Shown: positions 38,871 to 49,510 of the stretch, one piece after another
Layout of the letters: each line of letters begins with the position of its first letter
Position numbering within the stretch: the first letter of the stretch is position 1
NCBI GenBank assembly: GCA_032595685.2
Contig: CP159373.1
Span: forward strand, 4,317,821 to 4,381,820
DNA: 64,000 nucleotides
Origin: Candidatus Electrothrix aestuarii
GTDB lineage: Bacteria; Desulfobacterota; Desulfobulbia; Desulfobulbales; Desulfobulbaceae
Reading direction: 5' to 3'
Position numbers and translations under genes: made by a program
The notes under the pieces: generated by a model
What the model was told of the DNA's origin: nothing
The model's database searches: none
Seen by the model: only the letters and a program-made list of their open reading frames with translations

Positions 38871-39155
38871 CTCCTTTGCCTGATCGAGTTGATGTGAAGG
38901 AAGGGAAGCTCTAGGGGTAGCCGCCGGGTCCAGTGAGGACGAGACGGATGCGTTCGTTACCTGGTCATCTTTTTAAAGACCCCAGGGTAACGCTACAACG
39001 GACATGCAAAAATATTCATAACAGCTTAAACTTAAAGTTTTATTCCTGTCAAGCATTCCTGTCAAGCATATGCGCCTCCAGAACAATTCATAACACCAGA
39101 CCGGATTTCATATTGACAAAAGAGTAATAAATCAAGTAGACATTGGTCTACGTTT
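38871..39155. other. Divergent promoter region between acnA and the thiamine operon
   Basis: This interval holds no credible gene. It must contain the acnA promoter (minus) and the thi promoter (plus). A TTGACA at 39112-39117 followed about 17-20 bp later by AT-rich sequence (TAATAAATC) is a possible plus-strand promoter for the riboswitch transcript, but the match is partial. Confidence 0.4.
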
Positions 39156-39242
39156 CACTGGGGGTGCTTTGGACAAAGCTGAGAGAGGTCAGTGCCTCAA
39201 CCCTTGGAACCTGATACGGTTTATACCGTCGTAGGGATAGTG
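39156..39242 (+). promoter_or_regulatory. TPP riboswitch (THI element)
   Basis: The conserved THI-box sequence is present: CACTGGGGGTGC at the P1/P2 side, GCTGAGAG, then ACCCTTGGAACCTGATACGG and CCGTCGTAGGGA, closed by P1 pairing CACT (39156) with AGTG (39239). It is upstream of thiS-thiG-thiH, as expected for feedback control of thiamine synthesis by TPP. The expression platform is unusual, because a palindromic repeat lies between it and thiS. Confidence 0.93.
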
Positions 39243-39380
39243 AAAAAAGCCTCGCAGAAGTTCCTTTTTTGCCCTTCTTTTTTCCTCTCCCGTATTTTTT
39301 GTAATTTTTAATTCTCTCCGGTGAGCCGTGAATCTTATGAGGGATTCACCAAAAAATATCTTATCCCTATGCGGGATGTG

Positions 39381-39441
39381 GTAGGGGCGAACCCGTGTGT
39401 TCGCCCTGTTATGCCGGGCAGACACACAGGTCTGCCCCTAC
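39381..39441. repeat. Dispersed palindromic element (copy 2) in the thi leader
   Basis: GTAGGGGCGAACCCGTGTGT at the left and the inverse TCTGCCCCTAC-type arm at the right (reverse complement GTAGGGGCAGACCTGTGTGT) match copy 1 at 7834-7910. It ends 13 bp before the thiS ATG, where the ribosome-binding site should be. Confidence 0.75.
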
Positions 39442-39454
39442 ATTTTTATATTTT

Positions 39455-39652
39455 ATGCATATTATTCTGAACGGCGAACAGACAGCAATCACCAGCCAAA
39501 CCCTGCTTGCAATGGTGAAGGAAAAGGGCTTTGACCCTGATACAGTGATTGCGGAAGTCAATTTGCAGCTGATAAAAAAAGACGACTGGGAACAGACCAC
39601 CCTTGCTGAAGGCGATACGGTGGAGTTGCTCAGTTTTGTAGGAGGTGGATGA
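39455..39652 (+). CDS. thiS: Sulfur carrier protein ThiS
   Basis: A 65-residue beta-grasp protein starting [10 protein letters not shown] and ending in the essential diglycine (LLSFVGGG). The C-terminal Gly is adenylated by ThiF and thiocarboxylated to carry sulfur to ThiG. It overlaps thiG by 4 bp. An upstream in-frame ATG at 39395 would start within the palindromic repeat and is less likely. No Shine-Dalgarno is seen before 39455. Confidence 0.93.
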
Positions 39653-41551: not shown

Positions 41552-42067
41552 AGCTATGTGGCCCATTTCGGGCAGGGTGTAATAACGGAAGAACGTTTTT
41601 TCCTGCTTCATCTTAACATAAAAGCAAATGAACGATTTCAAGCATATATACCCCAGCAAGACTTTAAGTTGAGAGGAGCAATGGGGCTGACTCGGTCGTT
41701 TTGCTGATCTTGGTGCAGGATTAGTATTACGGACGATTGGTGAATGTGCTGGATGTGAGGACGAGTTAAGAAAGGTGGAGGGTTCTTTTCTTTTTCTTGC
41801 TCCCGATATCAGAATATATGGAAATTTGCGAAATGTATTACACTGTAATAGCAGAACAAATTTCCACTTATTAATACTGTTAGCAATCTTCCCATTAAAG
41901 TGTATTGATATTTTCTGCAAAAAAGACAAAAAGTATTTGACACTGCCAGATCGTCTTTCAAGAGTGACCATCATATGTTAGACAACTCAGGCGAGATATA
42001 CCTGCAACTCATTAATACATATAAATTACAGTTATTTGCGATTAATAGCAACCAAAGGGCATAAAGA
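41552..42067 (+). other. Intergenic junction between thiH and the AT-rich cassette
   Basis: No gene is supported in these 516 bp. Base composition changes from the GC-rich thi genes to AT-rich sequence at about 41760. The stretch has several short degenerate frames, which I could not assign to thiF or any transposase. A TTGACA at 41937-41942 could be a -35 box, but no good -10 follows at 17 bp. Confidence 0.45.
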
Positions 42068-43978
42068 ATGATAGATATAGGAGGTATTATTTTTAAATTT
42101 ATCCATGATACAGCAAGTCGTTTTATATCAACCTGTACGAGCAAAAAGTTTGGTGACTGGTTATCAAAGAAGAAATCACAGCCAGAATCTAAACAGGCTG
42201 AAATTAAGTATATCCAAGAACGTGCAAAACGAGAAAATCGGTTACTTTCACTACAAGAGCAGCTTGCACAATATAAGTATTCTGAGGTGAAAATAAGCGA
42301 ATTTTCTGCTCTTCATCAAGCGAGTGTTTCAGAAAGAGCCTTGCAACTGAAGCAAGAAGAGCTTGAATTAGCAAAAGCACGAATGCGTCAAGATGGACAA
42401 GTTTCTGCTGCATATATTGAGCTTAAAAAACAAGAACTTCATATCATGCATGAAGAGTTGATCGAAAGACGAAAATTCGGTTATCTACAGCTTGAATTGA
42501 TGAGGCAGGGACAGATTGGTTCTATTAGACTTAAATTGAAAGAATTGGAAGTACTTCGAGATCAAAAGAATTGGTCAGGAATACTGAGTCGTGATGAAAT
42601 GCGGGAAATCTTTGAAGGTCGTGAAAATAAGCATAAATTGCTTATGTTGGTTTCTCCGCCTGATATTAGTAAAAGTTGTCCTCTGAGTTTTATTAATAAT
42701 CTAGAAAAAGATTTACGAAATAGATTAAAATTATTCTTTCAAACATATTATCCACCGACAAGCGACTTATGTCCGGTAGATTTTTTTGGAAAATTTTTTA
42801 CGGCTTCTATTTTTGATTTACAAGCCCATCAACTTCAGAAAGAGTTGTCTCTTGTTCCAACGGTGGTTATCTATAGCGATATAACAGATCAGGATCTGTT
42901 TATTCATGCGTATTTTGGGGTTAACAATATAGAAATTCCATTATCTTTGGAATGGCGCTGGAAGACAACCCAACAAATGTTTATGACTTCAGAAGGTAAT
43001 GAAGAAGAAAGTTTGCTATTTATTCGAAATACTATCGTAAAAATTTACCAATTATCAGGATCATTTTTGACAGATTTATATTATCTACTTATCAATCCTT
43101 ATCATGAACCACGCCTCTTTTCAACATCAGAAAATGAATTTCCGTCAGAATGGCTCTCTTCATGCATAGATAATCTTTTAAAATTTCAGAAAAAAAGGAT
43201 TTTTGAACATGAGACAGAGTTACGAAAACAGCAAGAAAAGAATGATGAGCAAATTTTTGATGATACCGCATTACGACGATTAACAGATGAAAAAAATATG
43301 CGAGATCATGCTCCGAATACAAAACTCAAAAATATAAAGGGAACTCAGATATGGTATGAATGGATAGAACGTTCTGGTCAACTATACCAGCTAGCCTATT
43401 GGTATGATGAAAAAAAAGTTTACAAAGTAGCTATTATCGAAGGTATTGAACCAATTAATATGGGAAACCCACAAATTGGCTTGTCTGAAGAAGGCGTAAT
43501 CGACTTTATAGAGCGAAACTACTCGATCAATAGTATGATTGATTTACGCAAAAAAGCCATCGAATGGCTCTCCAGTTATTCAGCTTATCCTCCTTTTGGC
43601 CCTTTTGTGCTTCATACGATTAACGATATGTTGCATAATTTTTTGAAGAAGCGAAATTTCACTTCCCGTGAAAGACACGATATAAGAAATATGTTTGAAA
43701 AAGCTATCAATACTCAAGTGAAGGATGTAAACGGAACGATTGTTTGGTATGAATGGATAGAACGAGTCGGAAAACGATACCAGTTAGCCTATTGGTATAA
43801 TGAGGAGGATGAAAGGTACAAAGCGGCTGTTATTGAAGGCATTAATCAAGCTGATATAGCGAGCCAATACATGACATTATCTGATGAGGGACTTATTAAT
43901 TTAGAACATGAAGACGACCCCTATCAATTCGTAGCAGATATACGATCACATGCAATAGATTGGATTAACAACCTATGA
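42068..43978 (+). CDS. Coiled-coil protein with unknown central domain and two WYEW-type repeats
   Basis: A 636-residue protein of no recognised family. Residues 40-170 form a long charged coiled coil (QERAKRENRLLSLQEQLAQY and onward). Residues 188-300 look like a globular alpha/beta domain starting KHKLLMLVSPPDISKSCP and containing SLVPTVVIYSDITDQDLFIHA. Two copies of an about 80-residue module follow at 427-503 and 558-634, each built as IWYEWIE, YQLAYWY, a basic turn, YKxAxIEG, an acidic loop and a final RxxAIxWL/INN. The same module is in the next two genes. It overlaps the next gene by 4 bp. Probably a sensor, scaffold or conjugation target in the JAB/E1 system. Confidence 0.75.
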   Translation: MIDIGGIIFKFIHDTASRFISTCTSKKFGDWLSKKKSQPESKQAEIKYIQERAKRENRLLSLQEQLAQYKYSEVKISEFSALHQASVSERALQLKQEELELAKARMRQDGQVSAAYIELKKQELHIMHEELIERRKFGYLQLELMRQGQIGSIRLKLKELEVLRDQKNWSGILSRDEMREIFEGRENKHKLLMLVSPPDISKSCPLSFINNLEKDLRNRLKLFFQTYYPPTSDLCPVDFFGKFFTASIFDLQAHQLQKELSLVPTVVIYSDITDQDLFIHAYFGVNNIEIPLSLEWRWKTTQQMFMTSEGNEEESLLFIRNTIVKIYQLSGSFLTDLYYLLINPYHEPRLFSTSENEFPSEWLSSCIDNLLKFQKKRIFEHETELRKQQEKNDEQIFDDTALRRLTDEKNMRDHAPNTKLKNIKGTQIWYEWIERSGQLYQLAYWYDEKKVYKVAIIEGIEPINMGNPQIGLSEEGVIDFIERNYSINSMIDLRKKAIEWLSSYSAYPPFGPFVLHTINDMLHNFLKKRNFTSRERHDIRNMFEKAINTQVKDVNGTIVWYEWIERVGKRYQLAYWYNEEDERYKAAVIEGINQADIASQYMTLSDEGLINLEHEDDPYQFVADIRSHAIDWINNL

Positions 43979-44421
43979 ATATTAGAAATATACTGCTAAA
44001 TAGTTCTGTCAAAATAGGATTACGAGTTTCTCCCAATACTTTTTTTGGGGGGAGACCCATGAATTGGCGTGAAAAGTGCGATATGAATGAAATGAAAGAA
44101 AACGCTCCTAATGCACATCCTACTCTCGTTGACGATGCTCTTGTATGGTTTGAATATACAGACCAGGGAGGGAGAACATATTATTTAGCATATTGGTACG
44201 ATAGTGAACAAGGGGATTACCAAGCAGCTATTATAGAGGGAGCATCCTATAATGGGAATACGATCAAAGATCATATTTATTCAGACAATCGCCTATGCTT
44301 AAAAGGGGATAGTGATCCAAAATTTAAAAGTGCCTTTGAAGTACGTAATAGAGCAATACTTTGGGCATGCCTTTATTCGGAGTACCTAAAAACGGGGATT
44401 TGGGAAGTTCCCACTATTTAG
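43975..44421 (+). CDS. Single WYEW-type module protein, unknown function
   Basis: A 148-residue protein: a 48-residue basic N-terminus followed by one copy of the repeated module (VWFEYTDQGGRTYYLAYWYD, YQAAIIEGASYNG, EVRNRAILWACLYSEYLKTG). Its ATG overlaps the preceding stop (ATGA), which implies translational coupling. The last residues (SEYLKTGIWEVP) match the end of the module in the downstream JAB protein (SEFLKTGKFRPP), so the true module is about 95 residues. Nothing in it suggests catalysis. Confidence 0.72.
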   Translation: MNIRNILLNSSVKIGLRVSPNTFFGGRPMNWREKCDMNEMKENAPNAHPTLVDDALVWFEYTDQGGRTYYLAYWYDSEQGDYQAAIIEGASYNGNTIKDHIYSDNRLCLKGDSDPKFKSAFEVRNRAILWACLYSEYLKTGIWEVPTI

Positions 44422-44462
44422 TAACTAACCTTACGCAGAGGTTCCCCGGAACCCTTTATGGT

Positions 44463-45404
44463 ATGAAAACGATAGAAAAAGTATATATTTCAAAAGAAGT
44501 GATTCAAAAAATAACTTATGATATTGCTAATCAACGTCCTGAAGCTGGAGGGTTGTTGATGGGGCCACCTGATAAAGATGCTATTACCTTTTTTGAATAT
44601 GATAAATTTGGTCAATCAGGCTCTTTGGCCTACACTCCAGAAGCAGAGAGACTAAGCCAAATTGCAGCACAAAAAAATCGCGAATGTGGATGGATCATTA
44701 AAGGAATTGTTCATAGCCATCCTGGTAATATGGATAGTCTTTCCTATGGAGATATACAAGCTATTAGGGATCATTTCCAAATTAATCCGGGGACACCTTA
44801 TTTCGTTGCACTATTAGTTTATCGTACCTTGGGCGTAAAAAAGAAAAAAACATTTTTAAAAATAAATATTGACAAACCTGATAATACTTTCTTGTTAGAT
44901 GGTCGTCAATGTAATGCGATGGTTGCTTATGCAACATACGTTGATGAAAAACACAATTTAAACTTGGAAAATATCACCATAACAGAATTTTCGTCTCTGT
45001 ATGAAGTCCCCCCCTCTTCTTTTCCTTTTACACAGAAAGAACATAAGTCTGAGAGAAAACTCAAACCGCGTGAACAGAATGATATGCAAGCAATAGAATC
45101 TGCCGTTCCACATGCGGAAGCCAAAGATGTGAAAGGAACAATTATTTGGTACGAATGGAGACGTGACAAAGAACAACGATACCAGTTAGCTTATTGGTAT
45201 GAAAATAAAAGAGACGGATATCAAGCAGCCGTCATAGAGGGGCTATGCTCCAAACCGACTCCTAAAATATGTCTTGAGGAAGATGGGCGTATTATTTTTA
45301 ATAGAAAATTTTCTGATATACTTAAAATTCGAAAAGCCGCTATGGATTGGATTCCATGCTATTCAGAATTTTTAAAAACAGGAAAATTTCGACCACCACA
45401 ATAA
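44463..45404 (+). CDS. JAB/JAMM metallopeptidase fused to a WYEW-type module
   Basis: A 313-residue protein. Start chosen at MKTIEKVYISKEVI (44463), which aligns with the start of the next gene; a longer frame from 44361 would overlap the previous gene. Residues 1-170 form a JAB domain with the full JAMM set: Glu27 (RPEAGGLLMGPP), His84 and His86 (GIVHSHPG), Ser94 and Asp97 (SYGD). This zinc motif is that of deubiquitinase-type isopeptidases. Residues 226-313 are another copy of the repeated module (IIWYEWRRD, YQLAYWYE, YQAAVIEG). The enzyme likely removes a modifier from, or matures, a partner of the system. Confidence 0.85.
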   Translation: MKTIEKVYISKEVIQKITYDIANQRPEAGGLLMGPPDKDAITFFEYDKFGQSGSLAYTPEAERLSQIAAQKNRECGWIIKGIVHSHPGNMDSLSYGDIQAIRDHFQINPGTPYFVALLVYRTLGVKKKKTFLKINIDKPDNTFLLDGRQCNAMVAYATYVDEKHNLNLENITITEFSSLYEVPPSSFPFTQKEHKSERKLKPREQNDMQAIESAVPHAEAKDVKGTIIWYEWRRDKEQRYQLAYWYENKRDGYQAAVIEGLCSKPTPKICLEEDGRIIFNRKFSDILKIRKAAMDWIPCYSEFLKTGKFRPPQ

Positions 45405-45438
45405 TAACTATATTTATTGCCATTAGCGGGATATCAAG

Positions 45439-47784
45439 ATGAGTGAAAAAAGAATAAAAAAAATATATATTTTACAAGAAGTTATTGATGACATAACTCA
45501 TTACATTGCTAATCATCCTCCTGAAAGAGGCGGTTTGTTACTAGGGCCACCTCACAAAGATGCAGTTACTATTTTTTTGTATGATGAATGGGGATCTCGT
45601 TCAGGATCCACATATACCCCAGCCGCAGAAAAATTAAGCGAAATGGCTCAAGAAATTAATAGTCGTGAAGGTTGGATAATTAAAGGGGTTGTTCATAGTC
45701 ACCCTGGAGGAATGGGTAGTCTCTCTTTTGGAGATATAGAAGCCATTAATGACTATTTTGAAATTAATCCAGGGATGCCTTATTTTATTGGACTTATAGT
45801 TTATAATGATAAAACAGAGGATGAAGCTCAAAAAGGAAATATGTTTACCCCCATGAAGGGAAATAATTGTAATGCTATGGTAGCTCATGTAGTACATAGT
45901 GATGAAAGCAATAAGGAGGAAGTGCAGAAACGGCTTATTCCAATAGATATATTTACTGATCTTTCAGAAGTTCCTACATCACTTATACCTTTTGAAAGCA
46001 AAAAAATGGAATCTTCATATTTACAAAACATGAATACCAGGATCCTATCAATTTTAATTGAGAGTGAACTTACAAAATGGTTAGGAAGCGTAACGGATTT
46101 CTGTTATTCACCACTTCAAATTGAAGGAAATGAGATCAATTCTTTTCAATTTGGATTTTCTCATGCAACACAGGAATGGGAAGTAATATGTCTTTTACCT
46201 TATGAATTTCCAATAATTGGTCCTCAAATTTGTCTGTCGTCTCTTTCAGGTGAGGATATTAATTTTTCTTTGCCGTGGGACATCGAAAGTAAACTAACTA
46301 TAGGAGAGCAACTGTGTAAAAAACTCAAAAAAGAGTTAGAAATTCGATTAAGTACCCCTGAATTTTCTCAGAACATACTAAGTGAGGTGCTAGAAATACA
46401 AAGTTTTTCAAACGCACAACATACTGTCAAAGACTGTTTAATATCTGTCGTAGAATTTGATTTGTCAGATCTGGATTTAAAAATTAAATGTCAAATTCCA
46501 AATCAGTTTCCATTATTTCCACCTCGAATTATTTTGATACCTCAAAATGATAATGAATATGATTTACCTGTTTCATGGGATTCGGAGACTAAGGAATTAC
46601 CTGAACATCAAGTAGGACGACTAATTAAAGAAGCTCTGTTCAAACCAATGAAATCCTTGCAAACTGTCTCTGATAAGTCAGTCATTAGCTATGGCCCGGT
46701 TGGTTCTACTATATTAGCGACTACAGATAAAACTTTAGCAAAACAGCAAGGATGGGTTCCTTTTTATTCTCAGAAACGAACTCCTTTGAATATTGAAGAT
46801 GAATATTTTGCACGTTCTGGAGGAATTTTAAGTAAAAAACTGCGTGAAAAATGTGTAGTGATTTTTGGCTGTGGTTCAGGTGGTAGTTATCTTGCCGAAC
46901 AACTAGTCCGTAGTGGGCTGGGGAAACTTGTCCTATGTGATATGGATATAGTGAAAGCACAGAATCTATGTCGTAGTGGCTATGAAATTACAGATTTAGG
47001 TGTTGCTAAGGTAGATGCATTAGCCCGAAAATTACGCAATATAAACCCCTCCGTCCAATTAACGCTGAAAAATCAAAGTCTATTGGACTTGCCGCCTAAA
47101 CAGCTGAGAGAATTGATTGAGAGGGGTCAAGTTGTGATCGCGGGAACTGATATGCCTGAAGCCCAAGATCGACTGAATAACTATTGCTACAAAATTGGAG
47201 TTCCAGCACTTTTTCCAGCGTTGTATGAAAAAGCGGAAGGAGGGCAAATTATACTGACTATTCCCAGGAAAACCCCTTGCCATAGCTGTTCTTTGAGACT
47301 GAGAGATCTTCTTAATTCCTACTATGATAATAACAATGAGGAGCAAAGTAGATCTTTCGAGAGTCCAAATATAGGAGAGTTTGATTATAGTACAGGAACT
47401 TTAATAGCAGAACCAGGACTTGTCGGAGATATTCAACACCTTGATAGCATAACGCTTAAATTAGTATTAGGTTTACTTTTACAAAATATTCCAGACAATG
47501 AACAATGTGAGACACGAGATTTTCTTCGGGGACTAACAACTCAAAATGATGATGGTAGTAGCACAACTAAAAATTATATTATTGTATCACACAGTCAAAC
47601 ATTTTGGTTTTTCCCTGATGTGCGGGATAATCCAAAACAAGATTATGCCTATCATAGTGTATGGCTCGATACTCATGATGTACATCAATCGGACTGTCCT
47701 ATTTGTGGAGAACATCCTGAACCAATTAAAGATAGTCCATCTATGAAAGATATAGTCTCTGTAGGAAAGCTCCTTAATGTTTAA
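45439..47784 (+). CDS. JAB - E2-like - E1 (ThiF-type) fusion protein
   Basis: A 781-residue protein. Residues 1-165: JAB domain close to the previous gene, with Glu29, His86/His88, Ser96 and Asp99 (VVHSHPGGMGSLSFGD). Residues 200-410: two segments with the strand pattern of E2/RWD folds (WEVICLLPYEFPIIGPQICL; LKIKCQIPNQFPLFPPRIIL), without an obvious catalytic Cys. Residues 468-760: E1/MoeB/ThiF adenylation domain with VVIFGCGSGG, DMD (503), NLCRSGY (Arg512), LGVAKVDA (Lys524), AGTDMPEAQDR (Asp571), and zinc pairs Cys614/617 and Cys753/756. It could activate, transfer and remove a ubiquitin-like tag in one chain. Start has GGGATATCAAG upstream, a weak site. Confidence 0.85.
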   Translation: MSEKRIKKIYILQEVIDDITHYIANHPPERGGLLLGPPHKDAVTIFLYDEWGSRSGSTYTPAAEKLSEMAQEINSREGWIIKGVVHSHPGGMGSLSFGDIEAINDYFEINPGMPYFIGLIVYNDKTEDEAQKGNMFTPMKGNNCNAMVAHVVHSDESNKEEVQKRLIPIDIFTDLSEVPTSLIPFESKKMESSYLQNMNTRILSILIESELTKWLGSVTDFCYSPLQIEGNEINSFQFGFSHATQEWEVICLLPYEFPIIGPQICLSSLSGEDINFSLPWDIESKLTIGEQLCKKLKKELEIRLSTPEFSQNILSEVLEIQSFSNAQHTVKDCLISVVEFDLSDLDLKIKCQIPNQFPLFPPRIILIPQNDNEYDLPVSWDSETKELPEHQVGRLIKEALFKPMKSLQTVSDKSVISYGPVGSTILATTDKTLAKQQGWVPFYSQKRTPLNIEDEYFARSGGILSKKLREKCVVIFGCGSGGSYLAEQLVRSGLGKLVLCDMDIVKAQNLCRSGYEITDLGVAKVDALARKLRNINPSVQLTLKNQSLLDLPPKQLRELIERGQVVIAGTDMPEAQDRLNNYCYKIGVPALFPALYEKAEGGQIILTIPRKTPCHSCSLRLRDLLNSYYDNNNEEQSRSFESPNIGEFDYSTGTLIAEPGLVGDIQHLDSITLKLVLGLLLQNIPDNEQCETRDFLRGLTTQNDDGSSTTKNYIIVSHSQTFWFFPDVRDNPKQDYAYHSVWLDTHDVHQSDCPICGEHPEPIKDSPSMKDIVSVGKLLNV

Positions 47785-47832
47785 AGTTGCACCTACATAT
47801 TTTTAACTCTAACTATTCAAGAGGAGTATAAC

Positions 47833-48021
47833 ATGTTGTACACAAAAACAGTCCAAATGAGTAATGGTATTGCTGTACCAAGGACAACCTTTTTTGCTAC
47901 GATTGAGGACATAAAAAAAGCTGCTAAAGAAGGCAGAGTAGTAAAGGCTGATAAGAGTGGAAATAATTTAAAAGTGGTTTCAGGTACAAAAGTTTCTCGA
48001 CGTACCTTCCATTCTTCTTAA
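47833..48021 (+). CDS. Small conserved-looking protein ending the JAB/E1 cassette (unknown)
   Basis: A 62-residue basic protein starting MLYTKTVQMSNGIAVPRTTF with GAGGAG 7 bp before the ATG, the best ribosome-binding site of the cassette. The charged middle (TIEDIKKAAKEGRVVKADKSG) and the C-terminus KVSRRTFHSS are clear, but there is no GG terminus, so it is not a ready-made ubiquitin-like protein. It follows the E1 gene by 48 bp in the same direction and shares its AT-rich composition. It might be the substrate or a highly expressed partner. Function unknown. Confidence 0.65.
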   Translation: MLYTKTVQMSNGIAVPRTTFFATIEDIKKAAKEGRVVKADKSGNNLKVVSGTKVSRRTFHSS

Positions 48022-48257
48022 TTTTCTACGCGGGAATACACAAAAAAATTTTGATGTAGGGCAAACTCCGTTTATGCTATCTTTAAACACTTATAGAACT
48101 ATAGTATAAACGGAATTTGACTCACGTTCAGAATACGACAGAAATTTTATACTAGTACAGTCAGGCGCAAATTATCCTGCACTTTTTGGAAGCCACTTTT
48201 CTAATTGTCATGAGGAATCATGCTGCAAAAAGTATTGCTAGACTTACGCCGCACTTA

Positions 48258-48367
48258 CTAGTGCTCAGTCATGACTAAATTTTAGGGTTATGACATTATG
48301 GTTAACACGCCAAGTTAATCAGTTGCTATACAGTCAACCCTAATTTTTTGATTTTACAAAGCACTAG
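48258..48367. mobile_element. MITE-like element with CTAGTGCT terminal inverted repeats
   Basis: A 110-bp segment bounded by CTAGTGCT (left) and AGCACTAG (right). The inner parts TTTTAGGGTT and AACCCTAATT are also inverted. The left part CAGTCATGACTAAATTTTAG recurs, in inverted orientation, inside a 45-bp element at 59890-59934 with the same kind of ends. No coding capacity; the mobilising transposase is not in the window. Confidence 0.6.
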
Positions 48368-48410
48368 CGTGATAGGATGTTTGAATCGCTAACAATCCGC
48401 ATTAAGCTAT

Positions 48411-48432
48411 GCCCACCGTGAAGACGGTGGGC
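48411..48432. repeat. Short GC-rich hairpin
   Basis: GCCCACCGT (48411-48419) and ACGGTGGGC (48424-48432) form a perfect 9-bp stem with a GAAG loop in an AT-rich setting. It resembles subterminal hairpins of IS200/IS605 elements or a terminator without a T-tract, about 105 bp before the Rpn gene. Confidence 0.4.
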
Positions 48433-48536
48433 TATTATCAATCGCCGTCCCCCTATTTCGACTCCTTAAAACCTTGCCCCACCTCTTACAGGCAGGTGTG
48501 CTCTTTCCGCAAAGCCCACGCATACTACAAGTAACT

Positions 48537-49460
48537 ATGCCACGAAAACTCATCAGCTTCGACTGGGCCATGAAAAAGCTCCTGCGGAGCAAGGCCAACT
48601 TCGACATCCTGGAAGGTTTTCTCAGCGAACTCCTGAAAGAAGATATCCATATCCTGGAAATCCTTGAGAGCGAAGGCAATCAGGAGGAACAGCGGGACAA
48701 GTTCAACAGGGTGGACCTAAAGGTCAGGAATCAGCAAGATGAACTGATGATTATCGAAGTGCAGTACGACCGCGAGCTTGATTACCTCCAGCGTATCCTC
48801 TTCGGCACCTCCAAAGTCCTCACCGAGCATCTTCAGGAAGGTGATCCCTATTCCGCTGTGGTCAAAGTGATCTCCGTGAACATCCTTTATTTCGATCTCG
48901 GCCAGGGAACAGACTATGTCTATCACGGCTCCACCTTTTTTCAAGGTATTCATAATCAAGATATTCTTCAGCTATCAGAAAAGCAGCAGGCCCTGTATCA
49001 GAAGCAGGAAGTCTATCAGATTTTTCCAGAATACTACCTGATTAAGGTGAACAGCTTCAACGATATTGCCAAGGACACCTTAGACGAATGGATATATTTC
49101 CTCAAAAACGAGGAGATAAAAGAGGAATTTCAGGCAAGAGGACTGAAGAAAGCCAAGCACGAGCTTGATATCATGAAACTGCCTGATAACGAACGACGTG
49201 CTTATGACCGGCACCGGGAGTATCTGCATTACCGGGCAAGCATGTTTGAAACTTCCTATACTGCCGCTGTGTTAGAAGGACGATTAGAAGGAAGAGCGGA
49301 AGGTCTGAAAGAAGGAGAACAACGGGGAGAAAAGAAAAAAGCCGTGCAAGTCGCACGAAAGCTTCTTCAGGCTGGCACATTGGATATAAAAACCATTGCA
49401 GATATGACAGAACTGACAGAGGAAGAAGTCAGAGTTTTGCAAACAGAGCGTGACGATTGA
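48537..49460 (+). CDS. Rpn family nuclease / PD-(D/E)XK transposase-like protein
   Basis: A 307-residue protein from ATG 48537 (MPRKLISFDWAMKKLL, the normal family start). The PDDEXK core is visible as FDWAMKKLLRSKANFDILEGFLSELL, then VDLKVRNQQDELMIIEVQYDRE (Asp...Glu-x-Gln/Lys). The C-terminus has the typical LEGRLEGRAEGLKEGEQRGEKKKA coiled repeat and a short helix-turn-helix-like end (TIADMTELTEEEV). Rpn proteins promote recombination and are often found in many copies. It lies in the accessory island between the JAB/E1 cassette and the rest of the thi locus. Confidence 0.88.
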   Translation: MPRKLISFDWAMKKLLRSKANFDILEGFLSELLKEDIHILEILESEGNQEEQRDKFNRVDLKVRNQQDELMIIEVQYDRELDYLQRILFGTSKVLTEHLQEGDPYSAVVKVISVNILYFDLGQGTDYVYHGSTFFQGIHNQDILQLSEKQQALYQKQEVYQIFPEYYLIKVNSFNDIAKDTLDEWIYFLKNEEIKEEFQARGLKKAKHELDIMKLPDNERRAYDRHREYLHYRASMFETSYTAAVLEGRLEGRAEGLKEGEQRGEKKKAVQVARKLLQAGTLDIKTIADMTELTEEEVRVLQTERDD

Positions 49461-49510
49461 TTTTTTTTATGAGTAGTTGCTCGATACCTTCACTCAACAA
49501 AACGCCTGTC

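Follow-up and report, generated by a model that had tools for sequence, protein, structure and literature searches.

The closest described relatives of the locus analyzed here are three kinds of bacterial operon in which ubiquitin-like conjugation enzymes (E1, E2) stand next to JAB enzymes. In CBASS type II, Cap2 carries E1 and E2 domains in one protein and Cap3 is a JAB, and type II short has an E2 only; according to the portion of the published account used here, Cap2 systems attach the cyclase itself, have no separate ubiquitin-like protein and need a C-terminal Gly or Ala (PMC10097602). The type 6e operons, as presented in the sections of Iyer et al. 2006 considered here, combine a JAB fused to the N-terminus of an E1 with a multi-Ubl protein and inactive E2/RWD domains, and are mobile and sporadic (PMC1779556). 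BilABCD and Bub operons, in the part of the source drawn upon, hold a separate E2 together with an E1 and a JAB in the same operon (PMC11354881).

In a 64,000-nucleotide stretch of the Candidatus Electrothrix aestuarii genome (hereafter the window), an earlier note had pointed to five genes as a candidate ubiquitin-like conjugation/deconjugation system. Homology to E1, E2 and two JABs was found in this cassette, with the JAMM residues and the E2 His and Cys retained, in line with that proposal. With moderate confidence, we read it as a mobile, cyclase-less ubiquitin-like conjugation/deconjugation operon with a likely anti-phage role.

Gene content and composition of the cassette

The locus order is TPP riboswitch (39150–39255), thiS, thiG, thiH, the cassette, a PDDEXK transposase-family gene, a cupin gene, thiD2/thiE and thiC. 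The features are as follows (positions in the window):

ORF1: 42068–43978, plus strand; 636 aa, coiled-coil-like N-terminus (read by eye), orphan middle domain (about aa 170–400), ORF2 module present as two copies without its Cys
R1 and R2 (ORF2-module copies in ORF1): R1 43262–43633, R2 43634–43978, plus strand
ORF2: 43975–44421, plus strand; 148 aa, or 120 aa if translation begins at ATG 44059; E2 in which the motif of CBASS-type E2s keeps its His and Cys (HIYSDNRLCL)
ORF3: 44463–45404, plus strand; 313 aa, JAB domain and a Cys-less ORF2-module copy, R4 (45078–45404)
ORF4: 45439–47784, plus strand; 781 aa, JAB (1–195), two RWD/E2-like segments (about 195–442), E1 adenylation domain (about 450–660) with two Cys pairs
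ORF5: 47833–48021, plus strand; 62 aa, AGGAG upstream, candidate minimal ubiquitin-like protein (predicted beta-beta-alpha-beta-beta)
thiS of the host thiamine cluster: 39395–39652, plus strand; C-terminus GGG, Pfam ThiS E 3.3e-11, possible alternative modifier
Stretch without counterpart in three syntenic sister loci (G469, G465, G468): 41552–48530, no strand assigned; approximate extent of the foreign stretch

All five ORFs were found open on the same strand at the coordinates claimed earlier, except that ORF3 probably starts at ATG 44463 instead of the TTG at 44361 given before. Counted from that ATG, the intergenic gaps measure 34–48 bases, and ORF1 shares its last 4 bases with ORF2. For ORF2 an alternative start (ATG 44059) is possible behind GGGGGGAG, and the AGGAG of ORF5 lies a few bases 5' of its ATG. 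An inverted repeat just 3' of ORF5 (window 48062–48119; 19-nt arms, 89% complementary, without a T run) is a possible operon end. No tRNA was found in the 64-kb window.

The cassette is AT-rich relative to its flanks, as had been noticed, with a GC content of 0.33–0.38 vs. 0.44–0.56 in the adjoining stretches, and GC3 is 0.23–0.30 in all five ORFs (ORF5 included) vs. 0.60–0.68 in thiG, thiH and thiC.

Conjugation enzymes, module copies and modifier candidates

The earlier note had denied the cassette a separate E2, and this has to be revised. When a CBASS-type E2 profile of 11 relatives (one from locus L063, ten from plasmids) was run against 1180 frames of the window, ORF2 was the sole significant match (E 6.8e-5; next best E 5), and its His and Cys fell on the family's PH.Y..LCL in the profile alignment. 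The plasmid relatives come from 79 records, 40 of them listed, and 10 of those loci were inspected: a nucleotidyltransferase gene lies directly upstream of the E2 in 9/10, and the tenth has a SAVED gene downstream. Six PADLOC E2 models match ORF2 as well (E 1.5e-5 to 0.014), the sole other PADLOC model on this protein being a cyclase (PDLC00816) matched at positions 485–537 of 542, and a scan of the whole genome with the PADLOC E2 model PDLC00862 at E 1e-4 did not report ORF2. Against the E2 profile, the ORF2 module profile scored 27.6; 200 column shuffles reached at most 21.6 and reversal gave 17.8, yet hhalign put the probability for this pair at only 14.8%. With phmmer, no E2 structure was recovered from PDB (best E 0.11, an RNase H). 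The AlphaFold (AF2) model computed from four rows runs helix, four strands, helix, helix (mean pLDDT 65.5, pTM 0.65) and had no significant Foldseek match (best E 0.33), the list including UEV (E 0.97) and Ube2V1 (E 1.4) at TM 0.34–0.37. Judged by its sequence, ORF2 is an E2 of the CBASS family that retains His and Cys and is of catalytic type, and because such a separate E2 is present, the conjugation/deconjugation reading is stronger than had been claimed.

What had been described as repeated unknown modules turned out to be copies of ORF2 that lack its His and Cys, two in ORF1 (R1, R2) and one in ORF3 (R4). They are 29–31% identical to ORF2, with 17 invariant columns in the four rows; the Cys column holds Ile in R1, R2 and R4, and the His is kept in none. 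At the level of whole proteins, ORF1 matched ORF3 with E 6.5e-17 and ORF2 with E 4.2e-12. Searched alone, R1, R2 and R4 each gave no match to E2 models, and it is their resemblance to ORF2 that makes us call them E2-like. They would then be inactive relatives of an E2, of the same general sort as RWD/UEV domains, and may bind the E2. ORF1 had no match in plasmids and phages, and in 394 other genomes of the phylum only weak N-terminal matches (query 4–138) were obtained, in 3 genomes (E 3.5e-4 to 0.0078).

Two complete JAMM zinc motifs had been claimed, and E, H, H, S and D of JAMM are indeed complete and invariant in both JABs (E29, H86, H88, S96 and D99 in ORF4). Both domains match Pfam Prok-JAB below its cut-off (ORF4 E 4.4e-5, residues 22–93; ORF3 E 0.0016), and the ORF4 JAB had no match at E 1 among PDB sequences. 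The two JABs are 52% identical, and their divergence (dN 0.40, dS 1.02, dN/dS of about 0.4), with JAMM kept, fits selection on both copies.

The E1 of ORF4 matches Pfam ThiF (E 5.6e-29, residues 465–625) and also scores against ThiF and MoeB models under their cut-offs. The residues listed earlier are all in place (D503, R512, K524, D571 and the Cys pairs C614/C617 and C753/C756, which are probably zinc-binding). The description as a full E1 domain holds for the ATP-site residues and the Cys pairs and does not extend to a catalytic Cys, none being evident at the usual E1 position in an alignment of three sequences only (ORF4 and one E1 each from genomes G172 and G333), where the invariant Cys are the two pairs plus one inside the ThiF domain. 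The two E2/RWD-like segments proposed for ORF4 stand upstream of the E1 domain and were recovered as an internal repeat with a local score of 73, reached by 0/1000 shuffles. The second of them has a weak Prok-E2_B match (E 0.033, 14.6 bits vs. a cut-off of 25.4) and no match among PADLOC models.

None of the five ORFs matches a ubiquitin-like family in Pfam, PADLOC or NCBIfam, in agreement with the earlier statement that a normal ubiquitin-like protein is missing, and C-terminal Gly or Ala was found in 0/5 cassette proteins. ORF5, which matches no family model in Pfam, PADLOC, NCBIfam or PHROGs, is predicted to run beta-beta-alpha-beta-beta, the beta-grasp order; these were single-sequence models, the best of five with pLDDT 71 and pTM 0.38 and the others with pLDDT 51–63, and Foldseek returned no significant match (best E 0.70). 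At these values ORF5 was rejected as a proven ubiquitin-like protein, and from its predicted fold we keep it as a weak candidate for the modifier of the cassette. It contains SG followed by its last eleven residues, and one may speculate that a JAB could cut it after SG. The host ThiS, which ends in GGG, is encoded 2.4 kb upstream of the cassette.

Comparison with described systems and genomic setting

With CBASS type II and type II short, the cassette shares an E2 of the same family with H..LCL, an E1 of the ThiF kind and a JAB. It differs from type II in having no cyclase and no recognised effector, in carrying E2 and E1 in separate proteins (ORF2 and ORF4) and not together as in Cap2, in the fusion of its E1 to a JAB and RWD segments, and in its two JABs, three Cys-less E2 copies and missing C-terminal Gly/Ala. 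The absence of a cyclase had been noted before for the cassette; SMODS (PF18144) was not found in the whole genome at E 0.01, in a search whose control gave matches in 4/14 genomes, over the cut-off in 2.

Type 6e operons, to the extent covered by the sections of Iyer et al. considered, share the JAB N-terminal to the E1, as in ORF4, RWD-like inactive E2 domains (R1, R2 and R4 without His/Cys; the RWD-like pair of ORF4) and a mobile, sporadic nature. The cassette, however, carries its RWD pair within the protein that has the E1, includes an E2 with Cys, lacks a recognised multi-Ubl protein and has in ORF1 a protein for which no counterpart was found; the type 6e protein has one to three Ubl repeats of 70–75 aa, whereas the four repeats of the cassette are E2-like and of about 100 aa, and ORF5 is single, with 62 aa. 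With BilABCD, as far as described in the part of the source used, the separate E2, the E1 and the JAB in one operon are common, but the cassette has no recognised BilA-like tandem Ubl with a processed C-terminal Gly, its E1 is fused to a JAB, and it has an extra JAB and the modules. The Bil E1 consists of an inactive adenylation half and a catalytic Cys domain; the cassette E1 is preceded by RWD-like segments and showed no evident catalytic Cys in the three-row alignment. As the arrangement departs from defining features of CBASS, type 6e and Bil, we filed the cassette under none of them.

The best E1 matches among 395 genomes of the phylum were in G172 (two loci) and G333 (loci L074, L075 and L076). 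These E1s adjoin E2-like genes (UQ_con E 0.16 and 0.0023, under the cut-off) and genes with JAB-like motifs (Prok-JAB E 0.0037 in G333; no Pfam match in G172). A HerA-like gene (DUF87 E 9.8e-5, 23.0 bits vs. a cut-off of 23.2) is present in G333 too, along with genes that look coiled-coil-like by eye; of the two G172 loci, one has a similar large gene, judged HerA-like by eye, and inspection by eye noticed no modifier gene in the G172 and G333 operons. They share with the cassette the same Cys pairs and an E2-like gene adjoining the E1, but their JAB-like domain is not fused to the E1. An E1 from a phage scaffold (H33; human-gut L043, MT836827.1, 584–6308) was set aside; it adjoins an FtsK/HerA-like gene, and no JAB was seen (both by eye).

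At E 1e-10, ORF4 had matches in 127 of the 395 genomes of the phylum, its own among them, and all those listed from other genomes overlap no part but the E1; the search scored at most two candidates per genome, so relatives of the JAB alone could be missed. JAB-RWD was absent from 7/7 other genomes of the genus searched (completeness 69–97%) and from the other 256 genomes searched in the order, except for one marginal match (E 0.009). The ORF2 modules matched one other genome among 297 (E 0.0056), and the ORF5 matches in six other genomes of the 395 (E 0.003–0.09) were judged to be chance. In plasmids, ORF4 matched 142 records, none of the best 30 listed covering 80%, JAB-RWD and ORF2 had no match, and ORF5 had one (E 6); in phages, ORF4 matched 21 records, none of the best 10 listed covering 80%, and ORF3 had one match (E 0.4). 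Peptide-pattern scans of genome and viral contigs, which are weak since exact patterns are needed, gave no confirmed relative. The earlier note had proposed co-occurrence of the five genes elsewhere as a check; no second copy of the cassette was found in the phylum genomes, plasmids, phages or contig pattern scans, and the gene set may therefore not be a conserved unit. The arrangement is related to known anti-virus systems, but was not found in the collections searched or, in print, in open-licence literature.

In three sister loci, from G469 (94–96% identical here), G465 and G468, the flanks are syntenic and the cassette is absent; within the foreign stretch, a piece at 41737–41887 is the exception, being present in G468 at 76% identity. 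At the cassette site, G469 encodes a NotI-like endonuclease (E 1.3e-4, 21.8 bits vs. a cut-off of 22) and a C5 methylase (E 8.8e-69), both in L054:6887–8967, along with a methyltransferase gene; the site is a possible defence hotspot inside the thiamine cluster. Because the composition is foreign, loss from the sister genomes is less likely than insertion: the cassette was probably acquired horizontally, and probably inserted at a position that restriction-modification genes occupy as well.

Two further observations concern the 3' flank. The PD-(D/E)XK transposase-family gene (window 48474–49460) has twelve further DNA matches in its own genome, so the family has multiplied. In G469, SelO and a Peptidase_M15 gene (L054:3633–5837) lie between the transposase-family gene and the cupin gene; both are missing at this place in the window (49411–49467).

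Proposed mechanism and competing explanations

An anti-phage role is suggested by analogy, from the plasmid relatives of the E2 in CBASS-type operons and from the restriction-modification-like genes at the sister-genome site. If the operon is active, the E1 domain of ORF4 would adenylate the C-terminus of a small protein, either ORF5 after trimming by a JAB or a ThiS-type protein. The activated C-terminus would then pass to the Cys of the separate E2 (ORF2), with help from the RWD-like segments of ORF4, and we propose that the adenylate is transferred directly because the E1 shows no evident catalytic Cys. The Cys-less copies in ORF1 and ORF3, as UEV/RWD-like partners, may capture the charged E2 or the modifier and deliver it to ORF1, the coiled-coil protein, which could be a scaffold, a sensor or the target. 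Finally, the two JABs would process the modifier and reverse conjugation. A sharper version, which we consider unlikely in its entirety, would make the cassette a distinct cyclase-less system with one E2 and three dead copies in UEV-like scaffolding, a Cys-less E1 that hands the adenylate to the E2, and ORF5 as a modifier trimmed by a JAB at an internal Gly.

A mobile cassette in which a conjugating and a cleaving activity work against each other would also suit an addiction or regulatory protein-modifying element with no anti-phage role, the conjugase being harmful and the JABs the antidote, an idea raised in the sections of Iyer et al. 2006 considered here (PMC1779556). We think this quite improbable: no toxin family appears among the significant Pfam, PADLOC and NCBIfam matches, and PHROGs, run with the four ORFs other than ORF4, gave nothing significant. 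Smaller still is the chance that the cassette is a CBASS remnant, a type II operon minus cyclase and effector whose E2, E1 and JAB are functionless or serve a cyclase elsewhere. The resemblance of ORF2 to CBASS E2s would be expected of such a remnant, but the genome-wide SMODS search was negative, all five ORFs are open, JAMM is kept in both JABs at the dN/dS given above, and the order JAB-RWD-RWD-E1 is unlike that of Cap2 (E2 + E1) and Cap3 (JAB). Least probable of all, and very doubtful, is a sulfur-carrier or thiamine function, with the ThiS next door as the substrate of the E1 and JAB for making thiazole or cysteine. In its favour are the GGG end of ThiS, the surroundings (TPP riboswitch, thiG and thiH on the upstream side, thiD2/thiE and thiC on the downstream side) and the sub-cut-off ThiF and MoeB scores. 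Against it, the three sister loci have thiG-thiH and the same downstream flank but no cassette (one of them with restriction-modification-like genes there instead), JAB-RWD is absent from the seven other genus genomes searched, the composition is foreign, and Iyer et al. 2006, in the sections considered, report that operons for thiamine or molybdopterin lack a JAB gene (PMC1779556).

The reading as a mobile, cyclase-less conjugation/deconjugation operon thus stays the preferred one. If it is active, bacteria would build assemblies of an E2 and inactive-E2 partners, for which the eukaryotic Ubc13-Mms2 offers a parallel, in a mobile and probably defensive cassette without a nucleotide signal. 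The cassette would test whether an E1 without a catalytic Cys loads an E2 directly, and would offer a small system in which to study the role of the conjugation step in bacteria when there is no cyclase.
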